64,000 nucleotides of DNA from Myxococcus guangdongensis (GTDB lineage Bacteria > Myxococcota > Myxococcia > Myxococcales > Myxococcaceae). Below are positions 14,207 to 34,088 of the stretch, one piece after another (position 1 is the first letter of the stretch; each line of letters starts with the position of its first letter). The notes under the pieces are model-generated. The model searched no databases. It had not been told where the DNA came from and worked only from the letters and a program-made list of their open reading frames with translations. The stretch is taken from assembly GCF_024198255.1 (NCBI RefSeq), contig NZ_JAJVKW010000010.1, positions 1 through 64,000 on the forward strand, in the 5' to 3' direction. A program made the position numbers and the translations under genes.

Positions 14207-14436
14207 GAAGGCGGGCGAAACAACGCGCGTCCGTCCAACGCCGTACGCCCGCGTGTCTCACGTCCCGAGACAGTCGTCCTCCGCCTGACAGGCCCGCGAG
14301 CAGCCGGACGGCTGGCGTGCTTAACTTGCGCGTGGGGAACGGGAAGCGGTGTCCTCTCGTTCATCCCGGCCGTCGAATCCGGACCGGGGTGCCCTCCGTA
14401 CCTACCCGTTCGCCGGGGCGTTCAAGGAGAATGACG

Positions 14437-16227
14437 ATGAAGCGTTGGGTCTGGCTCGGGTTGCTCGGTGGGGCGGTGGCGTGCACCAAGGTCCCCGACA
14501 GGGAGCCCTCGGTCACCGAGGAGGTCTGTCCTGGGACGGAGGAGCTGTCGCTGCCGGGGACCGCGAGTCAGGCGCTCAGCCCGCTCGCCGGCGCGGATGG
14601 CGCGGAGCCGGTGCTCATCACCTTCCGTCCCCGCGTGTCCGCCAGCGCCGTGTCCAACCTGGACACGCTCACCGAGTCGGCCCGACGCGTGGGCGCCCAG
14701 GTCCACCGCCGCTTCCCCCACCTGAACACCGTCGCCGCGAAGGTGACCCCCGAGGCCCGCGCGGCGCTCGAGCAGGACCCCGACGTGCTGCGCGTGGAGC
14801 CGGACCGCGTGGTGCGCGCGTTCGGCATGCCGAGCCTGTTGTCCCCGTCCCTGTTGCAAGGTGTGCTGCCCAACACGAGCGGCTCCACGGGCGAGTACAC
14901 CGCGGGCCTGCACCGGGTGCAGGCGCCCATGGTCTGGGACGCGAACAACGACGGCGTGCTGGATGACGGCGCGCCCTCCGGGACCGGCATCAAGGTGTGC
15001 ATCATCGACAGCGGCTGGGACAACCGGCACCCGGAGCTGGCGGCGGCGTACCTGGAGGGCAAGGACTTCCTCGACGGGGACGACGAGCCGCTGGACCAGT
15101 CGCGCTCGGGCGGCGTGGTGAAGTGGGGTGGCGGCCACGGCACGCACACGGCGGCGACCATCGCGGCGCAGCTGGGCGCGGGCGCGCACGTGCGGCCCGG
15201 CGAGGAGCCCAACGGCGTGGCGGGCGTGGCGCCCACCGTGTCGCTGCTGGTGGCCCGCGTGCTCGACGTCAACGGCGACGGCAACACGTCCAACGTCATC
15301 GCCGCCATGGACTGGTGCATCGAGCGCGGCGCGCACATCGCCTCGCTGTCGCTGGGCTCCATCGCGCCCTCGCAGACGGAGGAGGAGGCCTTCAAGCGCG
15401 CGTTCGAGGCGGGCATGGTGGCCATCGCCGCGACGGGCAACCGGGGCACGGAGGAGAAGTCCTACCCCGCGGGCTACGAGAACGTCATCGCCGTGGGCGC
15501 CATCGACGCGAACAACGCGTGGGCGCCGTTCTCCCAGTACGGCAAGGACTTCGTGTCGCTGGTGGCGCCGGGCGTGGGCATCCTGAGCGCGACCATCGTC
15601 GGCGGCGCGCCGTACGGCGACGTGGACGTGGGCGGCACGCGCTTCGCCTCCGAGCCGCTGGAGTACACCGGCGTGGGCAAGTACGCGGGGCGGATGGTGT
15701 ACTGCGGCCTGGGCGAGCGCGTGTCGTCGTGCGGCGAGGGCGCCACGTGTGACGGCTTCGTCGCGCTGGTGGACCGCGGCGGCGGCATCCTGTTCAAGGA
15801 GAAGGCGCTCAACGCCATCCGCGCCGGCGCGAAGGCCATCGTCGTCGGCAACAACACCAGCGAGGACGGGGCGGGCAACTTCACGCTCACCGACCCGGAG
15901 GACTTCTGGGTGCCGACGACGTCCGTCACCCTGGTCAACGCCAACTCGCTCAAGGGGCTGGTGGGACAGGACGTGACGGTGGACGTGTCGGGCCTGGACT
16001 ACCTGCGCCAGTCGGGCACGTCCATGGCCACGCCGCACGTGGCGGGCGTCGCCGCGCTGGTGCTGGGCGCGTGCCCCAAGCTCACCAACGTCCAGGTGCG
16101 CGAGGTGCTGCAGAAGACGGCGCTGGACCTGGGCGACGCGGGCAAGGACATCAAGTTCGGCCACGGCCTGGTGCAGGCCAAGGCCGCGGTGGAAGAGGCC
16201 CGGCGCGTCTGCCCTCCCGCGCCGTGA
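14437..16227 (+). CDS. Secreted subtilisin-family serine protease (lipoprotein, PA-domain insert)
   Basis: A 596-residue subtilase. MKRWVWLGLLGGAVAC is a lipoprotein signal peptide. An I9-type propeptide follows (~58-128), then the catalytic domain with Asp191 (CIIDSGWDNRHPE), His234 (GGHGTHTAATIA) and Ser529 (SGTSMATPHVAGVAALVLG). The unusual ~295-residue gap between His and Ser is filled by a protease-associated (PA) domain at ~408-515 (MVYCGLGE...VALVDRGGGILFKEKALNA). AAGGAGA is optimally placed for the ATG at 14437 rather than the ATG two codons upstream. It probably acts extracellularly in protein degradation, consistent with a predatory or proteolytic lifestyle. The target is unknown. 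Confidence 0.93.
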   Translation: MKRWVWLGLLGGAVACTKVPDREPSVTEEVCPGTEELSLPGTASQALSPLAGADGAEPVLITFRPRVSASAVSNLDTLTESARRVGAQVHRRFPHLNTVAAKVTPEARAALEQDPDVLRVEPDRVVRAFGMPSLLSPSLLQGVLPNTSGSTGEYTAGLHRVQAPMVWDANNDGVLDDGAPSGTGIKVCIIDSGWDNRHPELAAAYLEGKDFLDGDDEPLDQSRSGGVVKWGGGHGTHTAATIAAQLGAGAHVRPGEEPNGVAGVAPTVSLLVARVLDVNGDGNTSNVIAAMDWCIERGAHIASLSLGSIAPSQTEEEAFKRAFEAGMVAIAATGNRGTEEKSYPAGYENVIAVGAIDANNAWAPFSQYGKDFVSLVAPGVGILSATIVGGAPYGDVDVGGTRFASEPLEYTGVGKYAGRMVYCGLGERVSSCGEGATCDGFVALVDRGGGILFKEKALNAIRAGAKAIVVGNNTSEDGAGNFTLTDPEDFWVPTTSVTLVNANSLKGLVGQDVTVDVSGLDYLRQSGTSMATPHVAGVAALVLGACPKLTNVQVREVLQKTALDLGDAGKDIKFGHGLVQAKAAVEEARRVCPPAP

Positions 16228-21300: not shown

Positions 21301-23373
21301 TCAGGCGCTGGGGATGCCGCGGGCGCGGGCCCTGACGCGGGCGGCCTCGTCGAGCGCGCCCGCTTCTTCCAGCGCGGTGGCGGCGCGGTAGTAGAGCAGG
21401 GCGGCCTCCATGTGGCGGAAGGCGGAGGCCTCCGCGTTGGCGGCGGCGACGAGGAAGGGCGCGGCGCGCTGGGGCTCCTTGCCCTCCAGCCAGTGCTGCG
21501 CGACGACGACGGGCGCGGCCCTGCGCTGCTCCAGGGCGCTGGCCAGCCGGCGGTGCAGCAGGGGCACCAGCGAGGGGGGAATCGCCTCGCGCACCACGTC
21601 GAAGAGCAAGTCATGGGTGAAGCGCTCGCCGCGCAGCACGTGCGCGGCCTCCAGCTCGGAGATGTGCGTGGCGAGCGACATGGGCGTCATCTCCAGCACC
21701 TCGCTGGCCAGCTCCATGGCGAAGGACGTCTTGGCGAGCGCGGCCAGCCGGGCCACCTGGAGCGCGGGTGCGGACAGCCGCTCCAGCCGCCGCTGAATCA
21801 AGTCCCGTCCCCGCCCGGAGAGGTGCACCTGTTCGGGCCAGCCGCGCTCCAGGCCGCCGGACTCCAGCAGGTTGCGCAGCGCCTCCATGATGAACAGGGG
21901 GTTGCCGCCCGTGTAGCGCATCACGTTGTCCGTGAGCCCCTCCGCGCCGGCCAGCTCCAGGCTGCCCAGCAGCGTGCCCACCGCCTCCGAGTGCAGGGGC
22001 TCCAGCTCGATGACCACCGCGAGCCCCGCCTCCACCAGCTGCTGGATGCAGGCGGCGGCGATGGGCGTCAATTCGCCCCGGCGGTACGTGTCCACGAAGC
22101 GGGGGAAGACGCCGTCCGACGGGATGTCGTGCCGGCGCGAGAGCATGAGCAGCGCGAACTCCGCGGTGGCCGCGTCCATGTACTGCAAGTCATCCGCGAC
22201 GATGGCGTCCATCCCGGCGCACAGCTGGTAGATGGCCAGGCAGTTGGCCTCCAGGAAGCGGCTGCGCTCGGCCTCGTCCACCATGGGCGGCGGCGGTCCC
22301 TCCGTGCCGGCCATGTCCGGCATCAGCCGCGACAGCTCCCGGCGCACCCAGGGCGCGAGCGTCGCGTCCGGACAGCGGGCCATGATCTGCCGCAGCAGGC
22401 GCACGTGCGTGGAGTAGGCCACGTGCGTCTCACCGGGCCGCGACTCGAGCACCATGTGCACGCCGCGCGACGCGGCGAAGTCGTGCGCCAGGCGCGTCTT
22501 GCCCACCCCGGGCTCGCCGCTCAGGAAGATGGTCTTCCCCTCGGCCCAGGCCTCCTCCATCCGGGCCCACTCCCGCTCGCGCCCCACCAGGACGGGCGGC
22601 CGCAGCACGGACAGGGGCAGCTTCGCCGGAGCGTTGCGCGCGGGCTGGGCCGTGGCCGGGCCGCGTTCAATCTCCCGCGCCAGGGCCACCGTCTGGGGCA
22701 GGGGCTGCGTGGCCAGCTCCTCGCGCAAGAGGCGGCGGCAGCGCTCGAAGGCGTTGAGCGCGGCCATCCGGTCGCCCGCGATGTAGTGCAGCCGCATCAG
22801 CCGGCGCCACGCCTCCTCCGAGTACGGGTCCATGGCGAGCAGCTTCTCCGCCAGCACCAGCGCGCCGGACAAATCCCCCGCGCGCTCCTTGGCCTCCGAC
22901 TCCGCGGACGCGGCGCGGCGGCGCAGCTTGTCCAACCGCTCGCGCGCGCTCTCCAGCCACGACTGGAACTCCGGGCAGTCGTCGAACTCCAGCGCGCCCA
23001 GCAGCACGCCCTCCAGCGCGAGCGCCTGGGCATGACGCCCGGCGAGCACGTGGGCCTGCAGCTCCGCGGCGTCGATGGTGACGCCCTCGACGAGCGACAG
23101 CACATCCGAGCCCTGCACCAGCTCCGCGCCCACCGACAACCGCAGCCGGCGCAACAGCTGACGCATGTTGTTGCGGGCCGTGGCCTCGCTCGACTCGGCC
23201 CACAACAGGCCCGCCAGGCGGTACTTCGGATGCGGCCCTTCCAATGCCAGCCATGTCAGCACCGCCGCCGTGCGGCGCTCCAACGGCAGATGAGCGCCGC
23301 CATGCCGCAGGCGGGCCTCGCCGAGCAGCGCGAGATGAAAGACTTGCGTCCCTGCCGCGTCGTCGCCTGCCAT
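21301..23373 (-). CDS. AfsR/SARP-like regulator: winged helix + BTAD + STAND-type ATPase
   Basis: A ~690-residue regulator. An OmpR-like winged-helix DNA-binding domain (~10-95: LALLGEARLRHGGAHLPLER, GLLWAESSEATARNNMRQLL) leads into a bacterial transcriptional activation domain (~100-245: FQSWLESARERLDKLRRRAA, DPYSEEAWRRLMRLHYIAGD). An AAA/STAND ATPase follows, with Walker A GEPGVGKT (Lys292) and VADDLQYMD as a Walker B-like segment. The C-terminal part is helical. This is the AfsR/SARP architecture common in antibiotic and catabolic control. Homology begins at ATG 23373 (MAGDDAAG). It is divergent from an FAD hydroxylase whose promoter carries SARP-like 11-bp direct repeats. Confidence 0.9.
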   Translation of the reverse strand: MAGDDAAGTQVFHLALLGEARLRHGGAHLPLERRTAAVLTWLALEGPHPKYRLAGLLWAESSEATARNNMRQLLRRLRLSVGAELVQGSDVLSLVEGVTIDAAELQAHVLAGRHAQALALEGVLLGALEFDDCPEFQSWLESARERLDKLRRRAASAESEAKERAGDLSGALVLAEKLLAMDPYSEEAWRRLMRLHYIAGDRMAALNAFERCRRLLREELATQPLPQTVALAREIERGPATAQPARNAPAKLPLSVLRPPVLVGREREWARMEEAWAEGKTIFLSGEPGVGKTRLAHDFAASRGVHMVLESRPGETHVAYSTHVRLLRQIMARCPDATLAPWVRRELSRLMPDMAGTEGPPPPMVDEAERSRFLEANCLAIYQLCAGMDAIVADDLQYMDAATAEFALLMLSRRHDIPSDGVFPRFVDTYRRGELTPIAAACIQQLVEAGLAVVIELEPLHSEAVGTLLGSLELAGAEGLTDNVMRYTGGNPLFIMEALRNLLESGGLERGWPEQVHLSGRGRDLIQRRLERLSAPALQVARLAALAKTSFAMELASEVLEMTPMSLATHISELEAAHVLRGERFTHDLLFDVVREAIPPSLVPLLHRRLASALEQRRAAPVVVAQHWLEGKEPQRAAPFLVAAANAEASAFRHMEAALLYYRAATALEEAGALDEAARVRARARGIPSA

Positions 23374-23554
23374 GGCCTCCGAGGTTCCAAGAAGGGAAGA
23401 GCGTGTCTGGCCTAACGTAACACGCCGCACAGCAGGCTCCCTCGCGGGTAGGGATTAACCCAGGCAAGACGGCCCCATCACGCGGTGCGGCTCGAATTCC
23501 CAGTACACGGCAGCTCGCCGTCACGGGCGGACGGCATTGCGAATCGACTGGTGC

Positions 23555-23588
23555 GGTCACACCCTGGTCACACCTCGTTCGTTATGAA
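23555..23588 (+). promoter_or_regulatory. SARP-type direct repeats and -10 of the hydroxylase promoter
   Basis: GGTCACACC occurs twice as a direct repeat (23555-23563 and 23566-23574) with an 11-bp period. Eight bases downstream lies TATGAA (23583-23588), a plausible -10, 32 bases before the hydroxylase ATG. Heptamer-like direct repeats spaced 11 bp, with the last 8 bp from the -10, are the known layout of SARP binding sites, and a SARP/BTAD regulator is encoded divergently next door. Confidence 0.6.
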
Positions 23589-23620
23589 TCAAGTCAGGCG
23601 GGTCAACCACGGGGGTCGCA

Positions 23621-25210
23621 ATGGTTTGTGACAAGCAGCAGGCCGACATGGAGGTTGATGTCATCATCAGCGGCTGCGGTCCCGTGGGAGCACTGACAAG
23701 CAATCTGCTGGGCTCCCTGGGCGTGCGAACGCTGGTGTTGGAGCAGGACCTGGCGCCGCATGGACAACCGCGGGCGTTCTCGTGTGATGACGAAGCCTTG
23801 CGCATCTACCAGTCCACGGGCCTGGGCGCCGAGCTGCAGAAGGACATGCGGCAGAACCATTTCGCTGAATATGTGGGTCAGACAGGCAAGCGCTTCGCGG
23901 AGGTGCACACCAGCTCCGCGGACTTCGGCTTCGGGTATTCGCCGCTGTGGTTCTTCCACCAGCCGCTGGTGGAGGGGGTGCTGCGCGGCGGGCTGGAGCG
24001 CTTCCCCCACGTGACGCTGCAGCTGGGCGCGAGCGTGGAGTCGCTGGAGCAGGACGCTGGTGGGGTGACGGTGCGCTACCGCCTGGTGGAGAAGGGCGAG
24101 ACGCGCACGGTGCGTGGGCGGTTCCTGCTGGCGTGCGACGGGGCGCGCAGCCCGGTGCGCAAGGCGCTGAACATCAAGATGGCGGGCCGGGCGTACGGCG
24201 AGCCGTGGCTGGCGGTGTCCGGGCAGGTGGAGGGCGACGCGCCGGAGCTGTGCCGCTTCGTGTGCGACCCGAACCGCCCGGCCTTCGTCGCCACGGGCGC
24301 GGTGGGGCAGTTCCGGTGGGAGTTCATGCTGATGCCGGGCGAGACGCGCGAGGAGATGGAGCGCCCGGAGACCATCAAGAAGCTGCTGGAGCCCTACATC
24401 GACCCGGAGCGCGTGCACGTGGAGCGCGCGCAGGTGTACACGTTCCACTGCCTCAACGCGGCGCGCTGGCGCGACGGCAACGTGTTCCTGCTGGGGGACG
24501 CGGCGCACACCATGCCGCCCTTCATGGGCCAGGGCCTGGTGTCGGGCATGCGCGACGCGTCCAACCTGGCGTGGAAGCTCCAGCGCGTGGTGCGGGGGCT
24601 GGCGCCGGTGTCGCTCCTGGACACCTACGAGGAGGAGCGTCGTCCGCACGTGGAGGCGGTGCAGAAGCTGTGCGTGCGCGTGGGGCACCTGTTCCTCGCG
24701 CGCAACCGCTGGGTGGCCAGCGCCCGGGACCTGGTGATGCGCGCGCTGCAGCGCATCCCCCGGGTGCGGCGCTTCATCCAGGGCTTCGAGTTCAAGCAGC
24801 CGCCGATGCACGAGCAGGGCTACTACCTGGGGGGCAAGCGCGAGGGTGCCCAGTCGGCGGAGGGCACGTACTTCATCCAGCCCCGGGTGCGGCTGCCGTC
24901 CGGCCAGGAGGTCCTCCTGGATGACGCCATCGGCAACGACTTCGCGGTGCTGTGCCGCGCCAACGCGCCCTCGTCGCAGCTGGCCGCGGCGCGCGGGCTG
25001 GCGGAGGCCCTGGGTGGGCGGCTGCTCGCCGTCCAGCCGGCGGGCGAGCACGGCGGCGAGGTGCCCTCGGTGGAGGACATCACCGGGAAGCTGGGCGACT
25101 GGTTCTCGCGGCACGGCTCGGACGTGGTGGTGCTGCGCCCGGACCGCTTCGTGTTCGGCGCGGTGAAGGCGGAGCAGCTGCCGGAGCTGCGCGACGCGCT
25201 GGGCGTGTGA
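23621..25210 (+). CDS. FAD-dependent monooxygenase, MhpA-like (3-(3-hydroxyphenyl)propionate hydroxylase type)
   Basis: A 529-residue class A flavoprotein hydroxylase. The FAD Rossmann motif is IISGCGPVGALTSNLLG (15-31). The DG motif is LACDGARSPVR, and the GD motif is VFLLGDAAHTMPPFMGQGLV followed by SGMRDASNLAWKL, characteristic of the MhpA/PheA group. A C-terminal thioredoxin-like domain is expected for this length. It would hydroxylate an aromatic ring with NAD(P)H and O2. No ring-cleavage genes are adjacent, so it may act in secondary metabolism rather than in an mhp pathway. It is divergent from the SARP/BTAD regulator. An internal ATG at 23648 is an alternative start. Confidence 0.9.
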   Translation: MVCDKQQADMEVDVIISGCGPVGALTSNLLGSLGVRTLVLEQDLAPHGQPRAFSCDDEALRIYQSTGLGAELQKDMRQNHFAEYVGQTGKRFAEVHTSSADFGFGYSPLWFFHQPLVEGVLRGGLERFPHVTLQLGASVESLEQDAGGVTVRYRLVEKGETRTVRGRFLLACDGARSPVRKALNIKMAGRAYGEPWLAVSGQVEGDAPELCRFVCDPNRPAFVATGAVGQFRWEFMLMPGETREEMERPETIKKLLEPYIDPERVHVERAQVYTFHCLNAARWRDGNVFLLGDAAHTMPPFMGQGLVSGMRDASNLAWKLQRVVRGLAPVSLLDTYEEERRPHVEAVQKLCVRVGHLFLARNRWVASARDLVMRALQRIPRVRRFIQGFEFKQPPMHEQGYYLGGKREGAQSAEGTYFIQPRVRLPSGQEVLLDDAIGNDFAVLCRANAPSSQLAAARGLAEALGGRLLAVQPAGEHGGEVPSVEDITGKLGDWFSRHGSDVVVLRPDRFVFGAVKAEQLPELRDALGV

Positions 25211-25222
25211 GGCGGCGATTCG

Positions 25223-25238
25223 AACTAAGGGCTTAGTT
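25223..25238. promoter_or_regulatory. BlaI-type operator 1
   Basis: AACTAAG-GG-CTTAGTT is a perfect 7-2-7 palindrome 48 bases before the BlaI-family repressor start. Size and symmetry fit BlaI/MecI/CopY family operators. A second copy lies 23 bp downstream (centre to centre). Confidence 0.75.
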
Positions 25239-25246
25239 GACGAAGA

Positions 25247-25260
25247 ACTAAGCTCTTAGT
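25247..25260. promoter_or_regulatory. BlaI-type operator 2
   Basis: ACTAAG-CT-CTTAGT is a perfect 6-2-6 palindrome sharing the ACTAAG half-site with operator 1. Its centre is 23 bp away, about two helical turns, which allows cooperative binding of two repressor dimers on the same DNA face. It is 26 bases before the repressor ATG, so it should overlap the promoter or transcription start and give autoregulation. Confidence 0.75.
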
Positions 25261-25285
25261 AGTTTGCTGGCCACGGAGGACCTCC

Positions 25286-25684
25286 ATGGCCAGACAACCC
25301 GAGCCCGAGGCGCCCCGGCCATTGACGCCGGTGGAGCTCGAGCTGATGCACATCGTGTGGAAGCAGGGCGAGGTGAGCGTGGCGGACGTGCTGGCCGCGC
25401 TGCCGCCGGAGCGCGCGTTGGCGTACACGTCCGTGTCCACGGTGCTGCGCATCCTGGAGCAGAAGGGCGTCATCGTCAGTCGCAAGCAGGGGCGGGGGCA
25501 CCTGTACTCGGCCACGCTGCCGCGCGAGACGTACGAGGCGCAGAGCCTGCGCCACCTGGTGGACACCGTCTTCGATGGGACGCCCTCCGCGCTGGTGGCG
25601 CGTCTGGTGGAGGCGGTGCCGCTGGCGCCCGACGAGGTGGAGCAGATTCGCAAGCTGCTCAAGGCCAAGGGCGGCAAGCCGTGA
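25286..25684 (+). CDS. BlaI/MecI/CopY-family transcriptional repressor
   Basis: A 132-residue penicillinase-repressor-type regulator. The winged helix (~12-85) has LTPVELELMHIVWKQGEVSV and AYTSVSTVLRILEQKGVIVS, the family signature, then GRGHLYSATLPRE. The C-terminal dimerisation helices contain the region usually cleaved by the cognate BlaR1 protease. Two palindromic operators lie immediately upstream, so autoregulation is very likely. The stop overlaps the start of the M56 peptidase gene by four bases (GTGA), coupling repressor and membrane protease. Confidence 0.93.
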   Translation: MARQPEPEAPRPLTPVELELMHIVWKQGEVSVADVLAALPPERALAYTSVSTVLRILEQKGVIVSRKQGRGHLYSATLPRETYEAQSLRHLVDTVFDGTPSALVARLVEAVPLAPDEVEQIRKLLKAKGGKP

Positions 25685-27288
25685 GCGCACTGGTGTCCCT
25701 GTATCTCGCGGTGGCGCTGGTGTTGCCCGTGGCGCTGCTGCTGGCGTGGGGCGCGCTGGCGGTGCTCGCGCGGCTGGGGTGGGCGCTGTCGGCGCGGCAG
25801 GCGCTGAAGGTGGGGCGAGGCGCGCTGCTGCTCGCGCTCGTGCTGCCGCTGTTGGCGATGGGCGCGCGGGCGCTGTCTCCCGCGGGGCCGTTGTTCGATT
25901 TCGAACGTTCGGTGGCGAGGCAGGCGCAGCGGCTCCCGTCGGCGGTGTGGACGGCGAGCCCCGTGGGCAGCGCGGCTCCCCCGGCGTCGAAGGCGACGTC
26001 TGTTCCCCTCGGCGTGTGGATGGGATTGTCCGGAGCGTGGCTCGTGGGCGCGGTGCTCTTCACGGGGCGGGCGCTCTGGCGGCACCGGAGGCTGCTCCGA
26101 CGATTGGAGCGGCTGCCCCGGGTGCGCTCGGTGCGGCGGGCGGCGGTGGTGCTGGGTGAGGAGGGGACGCCCGCGTTCTCCGCGTGGTTCCCCCGCTCGG
26201 GCGCGCGTCCCTCCGCGTGGGTGGTGGTGCCTCCGTCGCTGCTCGAGGACTCGGAGGCGTTCCGGCTCACCGTGCTGCACGAGCTGCAGCATCACCGTCA
26301 GCGCGACACGCACCTGGCGCTGGGCCGACTGTTGTTGTCGGGCCTGTTCTTCTGGCACCCGGCGGTGCACGTGTTGTCGCGTTGGCTCGCGTCGTTGCAG
26401 GAGCTGGCGTGTGACGAGGCGTTGGTCGCCAGCGGTCGGGCCCAGGCCCAGGCCTATGCGCGCTGCCTGCTCCAGGCGGCGCTCCGACTCCCGGGCGCGG
26501 AGCCCGTTCCCGCCGGTGCCACCGGCATGTCCCACCCCACACAGAGGAGAATCCACATGCTGTTCCAGCCGCGTCCCCGTCGTGCCCACGCTGTCCCCGC
26601 GCTGCTCGCCGCGCTGTCCCTGTTGCTGCTCCCCGTGGCCGTGCTCGCGCAGGGCGCGGCGAAGGGCCGCGCGGTGACTCGCGCCGAGGTGGAGGCGCTC
26701 GCCCGGACGAGTCAGCCGAAGGGTGATGTGTCCATCGTCGTGGATGACAAGGTGGTGGAGCGCGTCAACAAGCTCATCGGCACCGAGAAGGGGCGCGCCT
26801 TCATGAAGCGCGCGCTGGAGAACCTGGGCACGCACCGCGCCGCGATGACGTCGACGCTGAAGGCGCAGGGGCTGCCCGAGGGGCTGCTCGCGGTGGCGGT
26901 GGTGGAGTCCGCGGTGACGAACATGCCGGAGACGGATGGGCGGCCGTCGCTCGCTCCGGGGATGCGGGGCGCCGGGGTGTGGATGTTCATCCCGGAGACG
27001 GCGCGTCGCTATGGGCTGGAGGTGAGCGCGACGAAGGACGAGCGGCTCGACGTGGCGCGGGAGACGCAAGCCGCGGCGACGCTGCTGTCGGACCTGCACG
27101 CGCGCTACCAGGACTGGCGACTGGCGCTCGCCGCGTACAACCAGGGGGAGCGCAAGGTGGACCAGGCCCTGAGCGAGGGGGGCAGCCGCGACACGACGGC
27201 GCTCAACGCCGCGGGGCACCTCAATGACTATCCCGCCACGGTGCAGGCGGGCCTGCTCATCGTGCGCAACCCGCACCTGTTGGATTGA
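25681..27288 (+). CDS. M56 (BlaR1-like) membrane metallopeptidase fused to a lytic transglycosylase domain
   Basis: A 535-residue fusion. Residues 1-~285 form a BlaR1/MecR1-type M56 peptidase: transmembrane helices (MSALVSLYLAVALVLPVALL...), zinc motif HELQHHRQRDTH (His200, Glu201, His204) and ELACDEALVASGRAQAQAYA. A further hydrophobic helix (~300-322, VPALLAALSLLLLPVAVLAQ) precedes a C-terminal SLT/MltD-like domain with ESAVTNM (Glu409, probable catalytic acid), GVWMFIPETARRYGLEV and RLALAAYNQGERKV. The translation start is the GTG overlapping the blaI stop. Typical BlaR1 has a penicillin-binding sensor at this position. Here a peptidoglycan-binding or -cleaving domain takes its place, suggesting that cell-wall state is sensed directly and relayed to the repressor. 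Confidence 0.9.
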   Translation: MSALVSLYLAVALVLPVALLLAWGALAVLARLGWALSARQALKVGRGALLLALVLPLLAMGARALSPAGPLFDFERSVARQAQRLPSAVWTASPVGSAAPPASKATSVPLGVWMGLSGAWLVGAVLFTGRALWRHRRLLRRLERLPRVRSVRRAAVVLGEEGTPAFSAWFPRSGARPSAWVVVPPSLLEDSEAFRLTVLHELQHHRQRDTHLALGRLLLSGLFFWHPAVHVLSRWLASLQELACDEALVASGRAQAQAYARCLLQAALRLPGAEPVPAGATGMSHPTQRRIHMLFQPRPRRAHAVPALLAALSLLLLPVAVLAQGAAKGRAVTRAEVEALARTSQPKGDVSIVVDDKVVERVNKLIGTEKGRAFMKRALENLGTHRAAMTSTLKAQGLPEGLLAVAVVESAVTNMPETDGRPSLAPGMRGAGVWMFIPETARRYGLEVSATKDERLDVARETQAAATLLSDLHARYQDWRLALAAYNQGERKVDQALSEGGSRDTTALNAAGHLNDYPATVQAGLLIVRNPHLLD

Positions 27289-27621
27289 CGCGCACCCGGC
27301 CCGGCGGCTGCCTCGCGCGGGCCGAGGGATGTGAGTGATTCGCGCGGGTCCTGCCTGTGATGCATCGGCTCCGCGGTCGTGAGTCAGCGGCGATGACGGT
27401 GGTTGGGTTCAGCGTGGGACATCCCCACCTGCTGGGCTGAGCGCCCACCTGTTTCCCTTTGGCTCCCTCCTGTATGCCAATCGTCTGTGCTGGCCGACGT
27501 GGGCGCGTGCCCGCGAGGGCTCAGCTGCGCGCGTGGGCTGCCCGGTGTGCGCGGCCCACGCGCGTGGGAGGAACGCTCCAGCCCGCCTGGCTCCATTCAG
27601 GCGGGCTTCTTCTCAGCAGGC
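27289..27621. other. Intergenic region with hairpins after the M56 gene
   Basis: 333 bases between the M56 fusion gene and the convergent TetR gene, with no convincing gene. It holds the CGGCCCG/CGGGCCG hairpin just after the M56 stop (27297-27324), a CCCACGCGCGTGGG palindrome near 27556, and a strong terminator at 27580-27613. The terminator lies nearly 300 bases past the last rightward gene, leaving room for a small RNA. Confidence 0.4.
27580..27613 (+). terminator. Rho-independent terminator
   Basis: AGCCCGCCTG (27580-27589) pairs perfectly with CAGGCGGGCT (27598-27607) around an 8-base loop and is followed by TCTTCT on the + strand. It would stop rightward transcription before it runs into the convergent TetR gene, which ends nine bases further on. 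Confidence 0.75.
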
Positions 27622-28266
27622 TCACGACGCCGCACTGCCTCCCAACATGCGCAGCGCCAGCTCCGCGTGCAGGTCCGCCAGGGTGTCCACGTCGAGCGCG
27701 CTGCCGGGCTCGTACCAGTAGGGCAGCCGCACCCCCATCGCGGAGATGGCCGCCGCCGCGACGCGTGGATGCGGCGGAGAGAAGCTCCGCTGTGCCACGC
27801 CCCGCTCGATGACCTCCGCGAGCAGCGCGGCGGACTTGTCCCGCAACACCACCGCGGGCGCGGCCAGCTCCGGCGTCAACGCGTACAGCTCCTCGTTGAC
27901 CACCACCGCCAGCTGCGGGTGCAAGGCGTGCGTCCGGGTGTGGGCTCGCACCAGCGCCCGTATCTGCTCGGCCGGCTCCGGGCCGGAGCTCTTCAGCGCG
28001 GATTGGAGCGCGTCGTGGTGGGCCTCGTGGCCGATGCGCACCAGCTCCGCGAGCACGTGCTCCTTGGAGGAGAAGTGTGCGTACAGCGCACTCGGCTGGA
28101 GCTCCAGCACCTTGGCCAGGTCTCGGATGGACGTGTCGTGATAGCCGCGGTTCGCGAAGAGCTGGAGCGCGGTCTCCAGGATTCGACGACGGGTGCCGTC
28201 CGACGGAGCGGAGGGCGGAAGGCTCGCCGGATGGGCGCGAAGCCGGGAGCGGGTCGGTGGGCTCAT
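27622..28266 (-). CDS. TetR-family transcriptional regulator
   Basis: A ~214-residue TetR regulator. The N-terminal helix-turn-helix (~24-70) reads DGTRRRILETALQLFANRGY, DTSIRDLAKVLELQPSALYA and HFSSKEHVLAELV. The C-terminal ligand domain is all-helical. The ATG at 28266 was chosen because a longer start at 28293 would lie inside the palindromic operator. The gene is divergent from the alpha/beta hydrolase, with the operator between them, so it probably represses both. TetR proteins of this type (with PEQIRALVRAHTR, LVVVNEEL-like segments) often respond to acyl-CoA or lipophilic ligands; that is only suggestive. Confidence 0.92.
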   Translation of the reverse strand: MSPPTRSRLRAHPASLPPSAPSDGTRRRILETALQLFANRGYHDTSIRDLAKVLELQPSALYAHFSSKEHVLAELVRIGHEAHHDALQSALKSSGPEPAEQIRALVRAHTRTHALHPQLAVVVNEELYALTPELAAPAVVLRDKSAALLAEVIERGVAQRSFSPPHPRVAAAAISAMGVRLPYWYEPGSALDVDTLADLHAELALRMLGGSAAS

Positions 28267-32164: not shown

Positions 32165-33145
32165 TCAGGGAGGCGTGCCCGGCGGAGGACCCATGCCGCC
32201 ATCCCAGCCCGGGGGCGGGCCCATGCCACCGTCGCCGCCGGGAGGAGGGCCTCCGCCTCCGCCGCCACCGTTGCCGCCGGGAATCTGGCACTGCGCGGTG
32301 TCGAGCGAGGAGCGGATGATGAGGGTCTTCCACGCGAGCAGGGCGCCGTCGTCCTGGCGCGCGGTCTGGAAGAGGTAGTCGTTCACGGACTCGGCGGACA
32401 CCACGTTGTCGTTGGCGTTGGTCGTGTCGCGGGGGCCGCGCGTGTCGTAGAGCGGCTGGTGGTTGATGATGTCGTCGTTGAGCGCGTCGTCGAAGAAGAG
32501 CTGCGACGTCACGTACTCCGCCTCGCCGATGCGCACGGTGAAGTGGATGTGGACGGTGCGGCTGCTGTACCAACCGGGGAAGCAGGTGTCGAAGTCGCAG
32601 CGGCCGTCCGCGTCCGTCACCTGCACGCCGCGGAACCAGCGGGCGCTGGTGGCCGAAGGGTCGTCGGAGGTGCAGAAGGTGCTGGCGTCCTCGCCCGAGT
32701 AGAGGCCCTCGGGGGCGGCGTGCCAGATGTCGACGGAGGCGCCCTGGATGGGGCGGCACTGGTCGTCGAGGATGCGGAAGGCGAGCCGCACGGGCAGACC
32801 GTCATGGCCCTCGCTGATGTCCTGGCGGACCAGGGTTTCGGCGTAGCAGGGGCCCAGGGTGGCGGCGCAGGTGAGGGCGCAGGTGGTGCCCGGGTCCTCG
32901 GTGAAGGGGTTGGCGTAGGTGCCCGACATGACGGCGGTGCCGCCGGTGGCCCAGGCGGTGGCGCTGGTGCCGCCGTCGGGGGTGGAGCCCGAGTCGGTGT
33001 CGCCTCCGGGGGCGGGGGCGTCCTCGGGGCCGCAGGCGAGCACCTGCACCAGCGGTATCGCCGCCAGCGTCAGGCCCATGCCGCGCAGCACCTTGCGGCG
33101 GCTCATGATGGCCGAGGTGAGGGTCTTGGTGTCCTGGTTGCTCAT
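32165..33145 (-). CDS. Secreted intradiol ring-cleavage dioxygenase-like lipoprotein
   Basis: A 326-residue protein. SRRKVLRGMGLTLAAIPLVQVLAC combines a Tat-type twin-Arg with a lipobox. A Ser/Gly/Asp linker leads into an intradiol dioxygenase domain (protocatechuate 3,4-dioxygenase beta-like, ~95-275). It contains QCRPIQGASVDIWHAAPEGL (Tyr in GLYSGED), FPGWYSSRTVHIHFTVRIG (Tyr and two His Fe(III) ligands) and YVTSQLFFDD. All four metal ligands are visible. The C-terminus is a Gly/Pro/Met-rich tail with repeated GGMGPPPG. Exported homologues occur in bacteria and fungi and may cleave catecholic compounds outside the cell. It is divergent from the SDR gene at 33267. The substrate is unknown. 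Confidence 0.88.
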   Translation of the reverse strand: MSNQDTKTLTSAIMSRRKVLRGMGLTLAAIPLVQVLACGPEDAPAPGGDTDSGSTPDGGTSATAWATGGTAVMSGTYANPFTEDPGTTCALTCAATLGPCYAETLVRQDISEGHDGLPVRLAFRILDDQCRPIQGASVDIWHAAPEGLYSGEDASTFCTSDDPSATSARWFRGVQVTDADGRCDFDTCFPGWYSSRTVHIHFTVRIGEAEYVTSQLFFDDALNDDIINHQPLYDTRGPRDTTNANDNVVSAESVNDYLFQTARQDDGALLAWKTLIIRSSLDTAQCQIPGGNGGGGGGGPPPGGDGGMGPPPGWDGGMGPPPGTPP

Positions 33146-33266
33146 CGCGAGTCCTCTCGAGGGGCCGACGCGTCCGGCCCGAACAGCCCGTGTCCTCGGG
33201 CTCGAGAATCGCTATACCCAGGGAGTTCTTAAGCAGACCTTACGTGCCACCCACGGAGACGCGCGC

Positions 33267-34088
33267 ATGACGACACTCAAGGGGAAGACGCTGTTCATCA
33301 CCGGGGCCAGCCGGGGCATCGGCAAGGCGATTGCGCTGCGCGCCGCTCGGGACGGGGCGAACATCATCATCGCCGCGAAGACGACGGAGCCGCACCCCAA
33401 GCTGCCGGGCACCATCTTCACGGCGGCGGAGGAAATCGAGAAGGCGGGCGGCCGGGCGCTCCCCATCGCGGTGGACATCCGTGAAGAGGACCAGGTCATG
33501 GCCGCGGTGGCGAAGGCGGTGGAGACGTTCGGCGGTCTCGACGTGCTGGTGAACAACGCGAGCGCCATCCACCTGACGGGCACGGTGGACACGCCGATGA
33601 AGCGCTATGACCTGATGCACAGCATCAACACGCGTGGGACGTTCCTGTGCTCGAAGGCGTGCATCCCGCATCTGAAGCGCTCGAGCAATCCGCACATCCT
33701 GAACAACTCGCCGCCGTTGAACATGGAGGCGCGGTGGTTCGCGCCGCACGTGGCGTACACGATGGCGAAGTTCGGCATGAGCATGTGCGTGCTGGGCATG
33801 GCGGAGGAGCTGCGTGACGACGGCATCGCGGTCAACGCCATCTGGCCGCGCACGGTCATCGCGACGGCGGCGGTGCAGAACCTCTTGGGCGGCGAGGACA
33901 CCATCAAGGGCAGCCGCTCGCCGGACATCATGGCGGACGCCGCGTACGCCATCCTCACCAAGCCCAGCCGCAGCTTCACGGGCAACTTCTGCATCGACGA
34001 GGACGTCCTGCGCGCCGACGGCGTGACGAACTTCGACAAGTATCAATCCGTGCCCGGCGAAGACCTGTTCCCCGACTACTTCATCTGA
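33267..34088 (+). CDS. Short-chain dehydrogenase (HSDL2-like SDR)
   Basis: A 273-residue SDR. The cofactor motif is TGASRGIG (~12-19), then NNAS (VLVNNASAIHLTG) and YTMAKFGM as the YxxxK active site; the upstream catalytic Ser is in ILNNSPPLN. Features such as AAKTTEPHPKLPGTIFTAAE and the C-terminal FCIDEDVLRADGVTNFDKYQ are shared with hydroxysteroid dehydrogenase-like protein 2, often linked to lipid metabolism. GGAG precedes the ATG. It is followed by a strong hairpin terminator. The substrate is unknown. Confidence 0.93.
   Translation: MTTLKGKTLFITGASRGIGKAIALRAARDGANIIIAAKTTEPHPKLPGTIFTAAEEIEKAGGRALPIAVDIREEDQVMAAVAKAVETFGGLDVLVNNASAIHLTGTVDTPMKRYDLMHSINTRGTFLCSKACIPHLKRSSNPHILNNSPPLNMEARWFAPHVAYTMAKFGMSMCVLGMAEELRDDGIAVNAIWPRTVIATAAVQNLLGGEDTIKGSRSPDIMADAAYAILTKPSRSFTGNFCIDEDVLRADGVTNFDKYQSVPGEDLFPDYFI

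Follow-up and report, generated by a model that had tools for sequence, protein, structure and literature searches.

A two-gene operon of Myxococcus guangdongensis appears to encode, in a single gene, both a membrane-anchored sensor and its effector: downstream of blaI, an M56 protease is fused to an SLT domain, and this domain would also be made alone from an internal start that lies within the protease-coding part. We put the probability that this is an autoregulated operon whose M56-SLT gene yields a membrane-anchored sensor and a free SLT effector at roughly 60%, based on comparative sequence analysis and structure prediction. The operon lies within the window, by which we mean the whole stretch of 64,000 nucleotides that was analysed, and its features are collected in Table 1.

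Table 1 Features of the blaI and M56-SLT operon, in coordinates of the window
Feature	Position	Strand	Basis or remark
BlaI-type operator dyad 1, AACTAAGGGCTTAGTT	25223..25238	.	Conserved in 47/47 readable loci; putative binding site
BlaI-type operator dyad 2, AACTAAGCTCTTAGTA	25246..25261	.	23 bp from dyad 1; putative binding site
blaI, repressor gene, 132 aa	25286..25684	+	Penicillinase_R/BlaI, Pfam E 5.2e-31
M56-SLT fusion gene	25681..27288	+	Open frame, 535 aa, GTG start, 4-nt overlap with the blaI stop
Peptidase_M56 domain, residues 65–294	25873..26562	+	Pfam E 8.9e-19; aligns with BlaR1 (8exs)
Internal Shine-Dalgarno AGGAGA, codons of Arg289-Arg290	26545..26550	+	Codon bias, anti-SD pairing
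Proposed internal reading frame from the ATG of Met293, putative secreted SLT, 243 aa	26557..27288	+	
Residues 293–323, TM4 in the long form and signal-peptide-like N-terminus in the short form	26557..26649	+	
SLT domain, residues 394–506, catalytic Glu409	26860..27198	+	Pfam E 4.2e-17, fold match, conservation

The domain composition of the fusion gene is established from its sequence. A Pfam search of the 535-residue frame (E up to 0.001, curated cut-offs) returned Peptidase_M56 and SLT, both above their curated cut-offs (68.2 bits against 31 for M56), and no other Pfam domain at that threshold, confirming the M56 protease fused to an MltD/Slt-like domain that an earlier note on this DNA had proposed. 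The Pfam search found no penicillin-binding sensor domain in the protein, and the NCBIfam model blaR1_generic, whose cut-off is 400 bits, gave a score of 22.7; as the same note had held, the SLT domain stands where BlaR1 carries its penicillin-binding sensor, with Glu409 intact. An AlphaFold2 model of the last 207 residues (pLDDT 84.8, pTM 0.84) has MltD of Pseudomonas aeruginosa (8rhi) as its top fold match (Z 17.0, rmsd 2.6, 173 aligned), in support of the SLT fold expected for this domain, which is, by these comparisons, a putative lytic transglycosylase enzyme of MltD-like type. The model of the full-length protein is of low confidence across the M56 part, with a mean pLDDT of 59.6; the fold matches listed for it up to E 0.001 are to MltD, with VIA rows that span only residues 328–535, and BlaR1 is not among the matches listed, which is uninformative because the M56 half is poorly modelled.

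The same fusion was found in 53 of 195 Myxococcota genomes, from seven genera of one family, and since some of these are single-contig genomes, an assembly artefact joining two genes, which the earlier note had raised against its own reading, is excluded. All 27 genomes of the window's own genus carry it, and the named relatives that do so are mostly Myxococcus, Pyxidicoccus and Corallococcus. We analysed 50 loci out of the 53 genomes, leaving out G017, G023 and G026, which are cut by contig ends. In one genome (G016; locus L074, G016:C6:120789-122365), a frameshift that may be real or a sequencing error separates the M56 and SLT halves, and the internal SD-ATG is intact. A record titled Comamonas sp. 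KCTC 72670 (L039) holds the same myxobacterial locus at 72% protein identity, and its assembly is probably mislabelled. Candidate fusions outside the Myxococcota, in Saprospiraceae, were rejected, as the frames at the match in L052 and L053 encode free-standing MltD-like proteins; these two were the frames read, with L054 and L055 left out.

The catalytic residues are likewise established across these homologues. Glu409-Ser410 and the active-site Arg290 are each present in 50 of 50, a count to be read with the kinship of these sequences in mind, which group into 26 clusters at 90% identity, 12 at 80% and 7 at 70%, and the zinc site (H200-E201-H204, E241 and D245) is kept in all 49 homologues that cover these residues. 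The G-x-W and YNxG motifs of the SLT domain are also conserved. The second motif of family-1 lytic transglycosylases is GLxQ; here Met replaces its Gln in 49 homologues, while Gln is found in one.

The coupled BlaI repressor previously placed upstream of the fusion is indeed there, as a Penicillinase_R gene that overlaps the fusion gene by 4 nt. A BlaI motif adjoins the fusion gene in 47 of the 50 loci; two of the other three are cut by contig ends, and at the frameshifted L074 the range covered was too short. Upstream of blaI lie two tandem dyads of the type AACTAAG-NN-CTTAGTT, with at most two mismatches in the rows found, and both dyads, their starts 23 bp apart, are present in all 47 loci with a readable blaI. 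The genes flanking the operon in the window, among 21 loci tested, occur only in Myxococcus-type loci. Adjoining the operon, at 21301–25210, is a BTAD/AAA regulator gene on the minus strand, divergent from an FAD-binding monooxygenase gene, and these two genes also adjoin the operon in several Myxococcus relatives.

Next, we considered what else BlaI might control. Across the 27 Myxococcus genomes, 53 of the 54 exact operator matches listed (both strands, 25 genomes) precede the M56-SLT operon. The sole match among those listed that lies away from it is G063:C1:12402080-12402094. A reversed control pattern was about as frequent, at 0 to 3 per strand and genome in the same 27 genomes, so that the place of the operator matches, and not their number, is what tells, and rarity alone proves nothing; with one mismatch allowed, the control was commoner than the operator pattern in the window's own genome (7 vs 2). 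No further operator site with up to one mismatch was found in that genome beyond the operon, and the search for exact matches would miss weak BlaI targets. The next likely gene downstream is a TetR gene on the minus strand. Because the operator matches lie before the M56-SLT operon, SLT is the only output in sight, and the operon seems, from these patterns, to control only itself. A scan of positions 25150–27700 found no sigma-70-type promoter and a single terminator-like site, which lies inside the gene and is at chance level. In Staphylococcus aureus BlaI, the scissile bond is Asn101-Phe102, with Phe at P1' (PMC9834060). The alignment places Leu, not Phe, at this position of the myxobacterial BlaI, as do the 45 homologous rows of equal length, and its scissile region is well conserved within the M56-SLT group, so the specificity of cleavage would have to differ from that in S. 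aureus.

The evidence for a second product comes from the codons ahead of TM4. Arg289 and Arg290 are encoded by AGG AGA, followed after 6 nt by an in-frame ATG (26557), and the arrangement GGAGR-N6-ATG is kept in 50/50 M56-SLT homologues. Arg290 is AGA or AGG in all 50, and Arg289 is AGG in 40 and CGG in 10, whereas AGA and AGG make up only 76 of the 2437 other Arg codons of the same genes (3.1%; AGA 6/2437). When all codon columns were ranked by synonymous bias, Arg290 came first and Arg289 third; one further Arg column, 429, has AGR in 13/50 homologues. The second most biased column is codon 276 (26506–26508), about 50 nt before the internal ATG, which is CTT in 35/50 homologues and GTT in the window.

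Anti-SD pairing and RNA folding were then compared along the gene. In a scan of 48 sequences (L074 and L075 left out), no in-frame start codon shared by 40 or more of the genes had stronger anti-SD pairing than Met293 (-8.80); stronger SD-like stretches (-9.2 to -10.4) lie before codons 450–453 and 184–187, but neither is followed by a conserved start. Folding energy, taken from every second sequence, averaged -8.45 around the internal ATG vs -24.1 (sd 3.74) over 164 sampled positions, the weakest of those sampled, and in 43 of 50 genes this region was at least as open as each of the ~257 windows lying more than 45 nt away. As a yardstick, 3 of 278 internal ATGs in the 47 gene models of the window pass loose SD and folding limits, and the ATG of Met293 is the most extreme of the three on each feature. 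The other two, which likewise follow SD-like stretches where folding is weak, lie in the gene models at 14317–16227 (codon 40) and 32919–34088 (codon 116), the former of which may start too early. The operon's own starts are not open (folding -20.5 for blaI and -22.5 for M56), so openness supports a start and does not define one. We also considered a GCCGG-N5-CCGGC hairpin before the internal SD as a control element and rejected it, as it is lost in some homologues (by eye).

Arg290 aligns with Arg294 of BlaR1 (profile alignment, residues ~187–294 in profile numbering against BlaR1 192–302), a residue that in the BlaR1 dimer is described as extending into the active site of the other chain (PMC9834060); the amino acids would therefore be kept by the protease and the codons by something else. 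A Shine-Dalgarno sequence would be the simplest reason for the conserved Arg289-Arg290 codons. The conserved internal SD-ATG is itself established from the alignment, and on sequence grounds internal initiation at Met293 is a well-supported prediction.

These observations bear on the reading that follows the earlier note, in which the gene makes one product only, an SLT sensor that would bind glycan strands and switch the M56 protease to cleave BlaI. No feature of the sequence indicates that SLT takes part in signalling. The 4-nt overlap that joins BlaI to M56 and the conserved dyads agree with it, and the C-terminal domain is the sensor in BlaR1, as described in PMC9834060; however, it leaves the AGGAGR-ATG signature unexplained, the retention of catalytic Glu409 in every homologue is what one expects of an enzyme, and, as the operator search turned up no separate target gene, nothing but the sensor itself would be induced, so that we consider this reading unlikely. 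For SLT, the role of effector is no less likely than that of sensor, because the internal start, with TM4 as signal peptide, would make SLT a candidate product of its own.

The predicted short product has the corresponding features. Its N-terminal part, from Met293 on, is positively charged (net +1 to +3) and leads into a hydrophobic core, which can be read as a putative signal peptide, the same stretch being TM4 in the long form, and the A/S323-Q324 boundary behind it is conserved in 50/50 homologues. This boundary would also suit a scheme in which free SLT arises by proteolysis only, with signal peptidase cutting the full-length protein after TM4, and since the S. aureus signal peptidase SpsB is described as cleaving the sensor domain of BlaR1 (PMC9834060), proteolysis could be a second route to free SLT. 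As the sole route it is improbable, as it explains neither the codon bias nor the open structure around the ATG, but cleavage after TM4 may act in addition to internal initiation.

To see whether the internal site recurs, we surveyed other M56 genes, for which 81 loci were given; 75 were read by one rule, and the remaining six, five distinct genes (three classical BlaR1, G108 and G004), were read separately. Met was found at the site in 51 of the 75, with AGR at 91 of 97 Arg codons, a mean SD of -10.4 and a folding z of +2.2, although best-scoring M56 matches were preferred as survey loci, which may favour the Met type, and the 51 belong mostly to one orthologous group and therefore represent few independent cases. 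The 24 genes without Met gave AGR 1/36, a mean SD of -3.7 and a folding z of -1.0, figures in which the rule took a neighbouring R-x motif in some genes (e.g. L078, whose true motif is CGN). Myxococcaceae M56 types with the internal SD-Met site have the motifs HRRLxML, KRRIAML and KERIIML. In G004, Met lies one codon earlier, with AAGGAG again 6 nt upstream and CGC as the Arg codon. Met and SD at the motif are both absent from the classical BlaR1 genes of Peribacillus, Enterococcus and Priestia, from a bla-linked Paraburkholderia M56 gene, which has a GTG further on with an SD of -9.1 but in folded RNA, and from G108, a myxobacterial M56 gene of another family.

Two individual genes show this arrangement, the second of them an independent case outside the Myxococcaceae. 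The second M56 gene of the window's genome (L076, G000:C3:355926-356534), which lacks SLT and has a long low-complexity tail, carries AGGAGG-N6-ATG before TM4. An M56 gene on a Sphingomonas plasmid, preceded by a BlaI gene (L152:2045-3658), has GGGAGG-N6-ATG at the same place, and its short product would begin with an RR-containing signal-like stretch.

Pausing of ribosomes at SD-like stretches is disputed. The contrast between M56 genes with and without Met speaks against the idea that the SD-like codons, which do sit just before TM4, merely slow elongating ribosomes for its correct insertion with the internal start unused, and this idea is highly improbable, as it needs neither an ATG nor a 6-nt spacing nor open structure, M56 genes without Met lack the element, three classical BlaR1 genes and the bla-linked gene have neither Met nor SD, and in G004 the element has kept its distance from the shifted Met. 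We place at even odds the wider proposal that a hidden second start recurs among M56 genes (in M56-SLT, in three more subfamilies of the Myxococcaceae and in one gene of Sphingomonas), with conserved-arginine codons doubling as Shine-Dalgarno and the periplasmic domain also secreted alone, and that in the M56-SLT operon BlaI controls only its own sensor gene, this sensor gene being its own effector.

Under our preferred reading, the operon would work as follows. The full-length protein would be an inner-membrane zinc protease of M56/BlaR1 type whose periplasmic side bears a lytic transglycosylase resembling MltD, and ribosomes would also start at the SD hidden in the two arginine codons before TM4 to make SLT alone, with TM4 as the signal peptide and a mature enzyme of ~212 residues released into the periplasm; the second gene of this two-gene, autoregulated operon would then encode two proteins. 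Several steps of this scheme are inferred: production of both proteins, binding of BlaI to the two dyads at its own promoter, its cleavage, and the state of the wall as the signal. Once the tethered SLT encountered the appropriate state of the cell wall, BlaI would be cut by the M56 site and the operon would be induced, so that the free transglycosylase would rise together with the sensor. The sensor of BlaR1 resembles the kind of enzyme that BlaR1 induces; here, sensor domain and effector would be the same sequence.

The M. xanthus counterpart of the gene fits MXAN_7318, by relative genome position only, which is listed as Slt/MltD/MltE, LTG family 1, in a table of PMC11444678. That paper describes knock-outs of 13 LTG genes other than agmT that kept gliding, and PMC12265050, which describes 14 knock-outs, names two other LTGs as needed for sporulation. 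We found no mention of MXAN_7318 elsewhere in the literature searched. In that search, outside which most subscription journals lay, there was no paper linking BlaI, BlaR1 and Myxococcus, none on the M56 family with BlaR1 and a transglycosylase, two apparently unrelated papers on M56 family metallopeptidases together with BlaI, and, among the matches listed, no report of an internal start in BlaR1/MecR1 (M56).

It is chiefly for sensing antibiotics that M56 proteins are known, and some would, by this analysis, watch something else. If the proposal holds, the periplasmic domain is also produced on its own, its start concealed within the protease-coding sequence, and one gene may supply both sensor and response; a BlaI-type switch would be linked to wall cleavage in a bacterium used as a model of social behaviour. 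Two synonymous codons offer a cheap way to ask if a gene for membrane signalling also encodes the effector.

Compared with known systems, M56-SLT shares with BlaR1/MecR1 (S. aureus, 8exs) the HExxH and ExxxD motifs and a conserved Arg near the active site, the elements that define the M56 site (PMC9834060), as well as a BlaI partner and a C-terminal domain beyond the last helix, and its profile matches residues 192–302 of 8exs (E 5e-4). It differs in carrying SLT in place of the penicillin-binding domain, in the internal SD-ATG before TM4, which the three BlaR1 genes and the bla-linked M56 gene lack, in having no separate target gene that we could find, and in the scissile position of BlaI. 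The system is predicted to work like BlaR1-BlaI but not as a beta-lactam sensor, because the defining sensor domain was not found. With MltD and other family-1 lytic transglycosylases (8rhe, 8rhf, 8rhi) it has in common the SLT fold, Glu-Ser, G-x-W and YNxG, whereas no LysM was found in it by Pfam, Met stands for the Gln of the second motif in nearly all homologues, and it is joined to an M56 protease. A precedent for part of a protein also being made alone, from an in-frame start within its gene, is described for cas11b (PMC11899642); in M56-SLT, by contrast, initiation at the hidden site would make a signal peptide out of a transmembrane helix, and a periplasmic enzyme would be released from its sensor.
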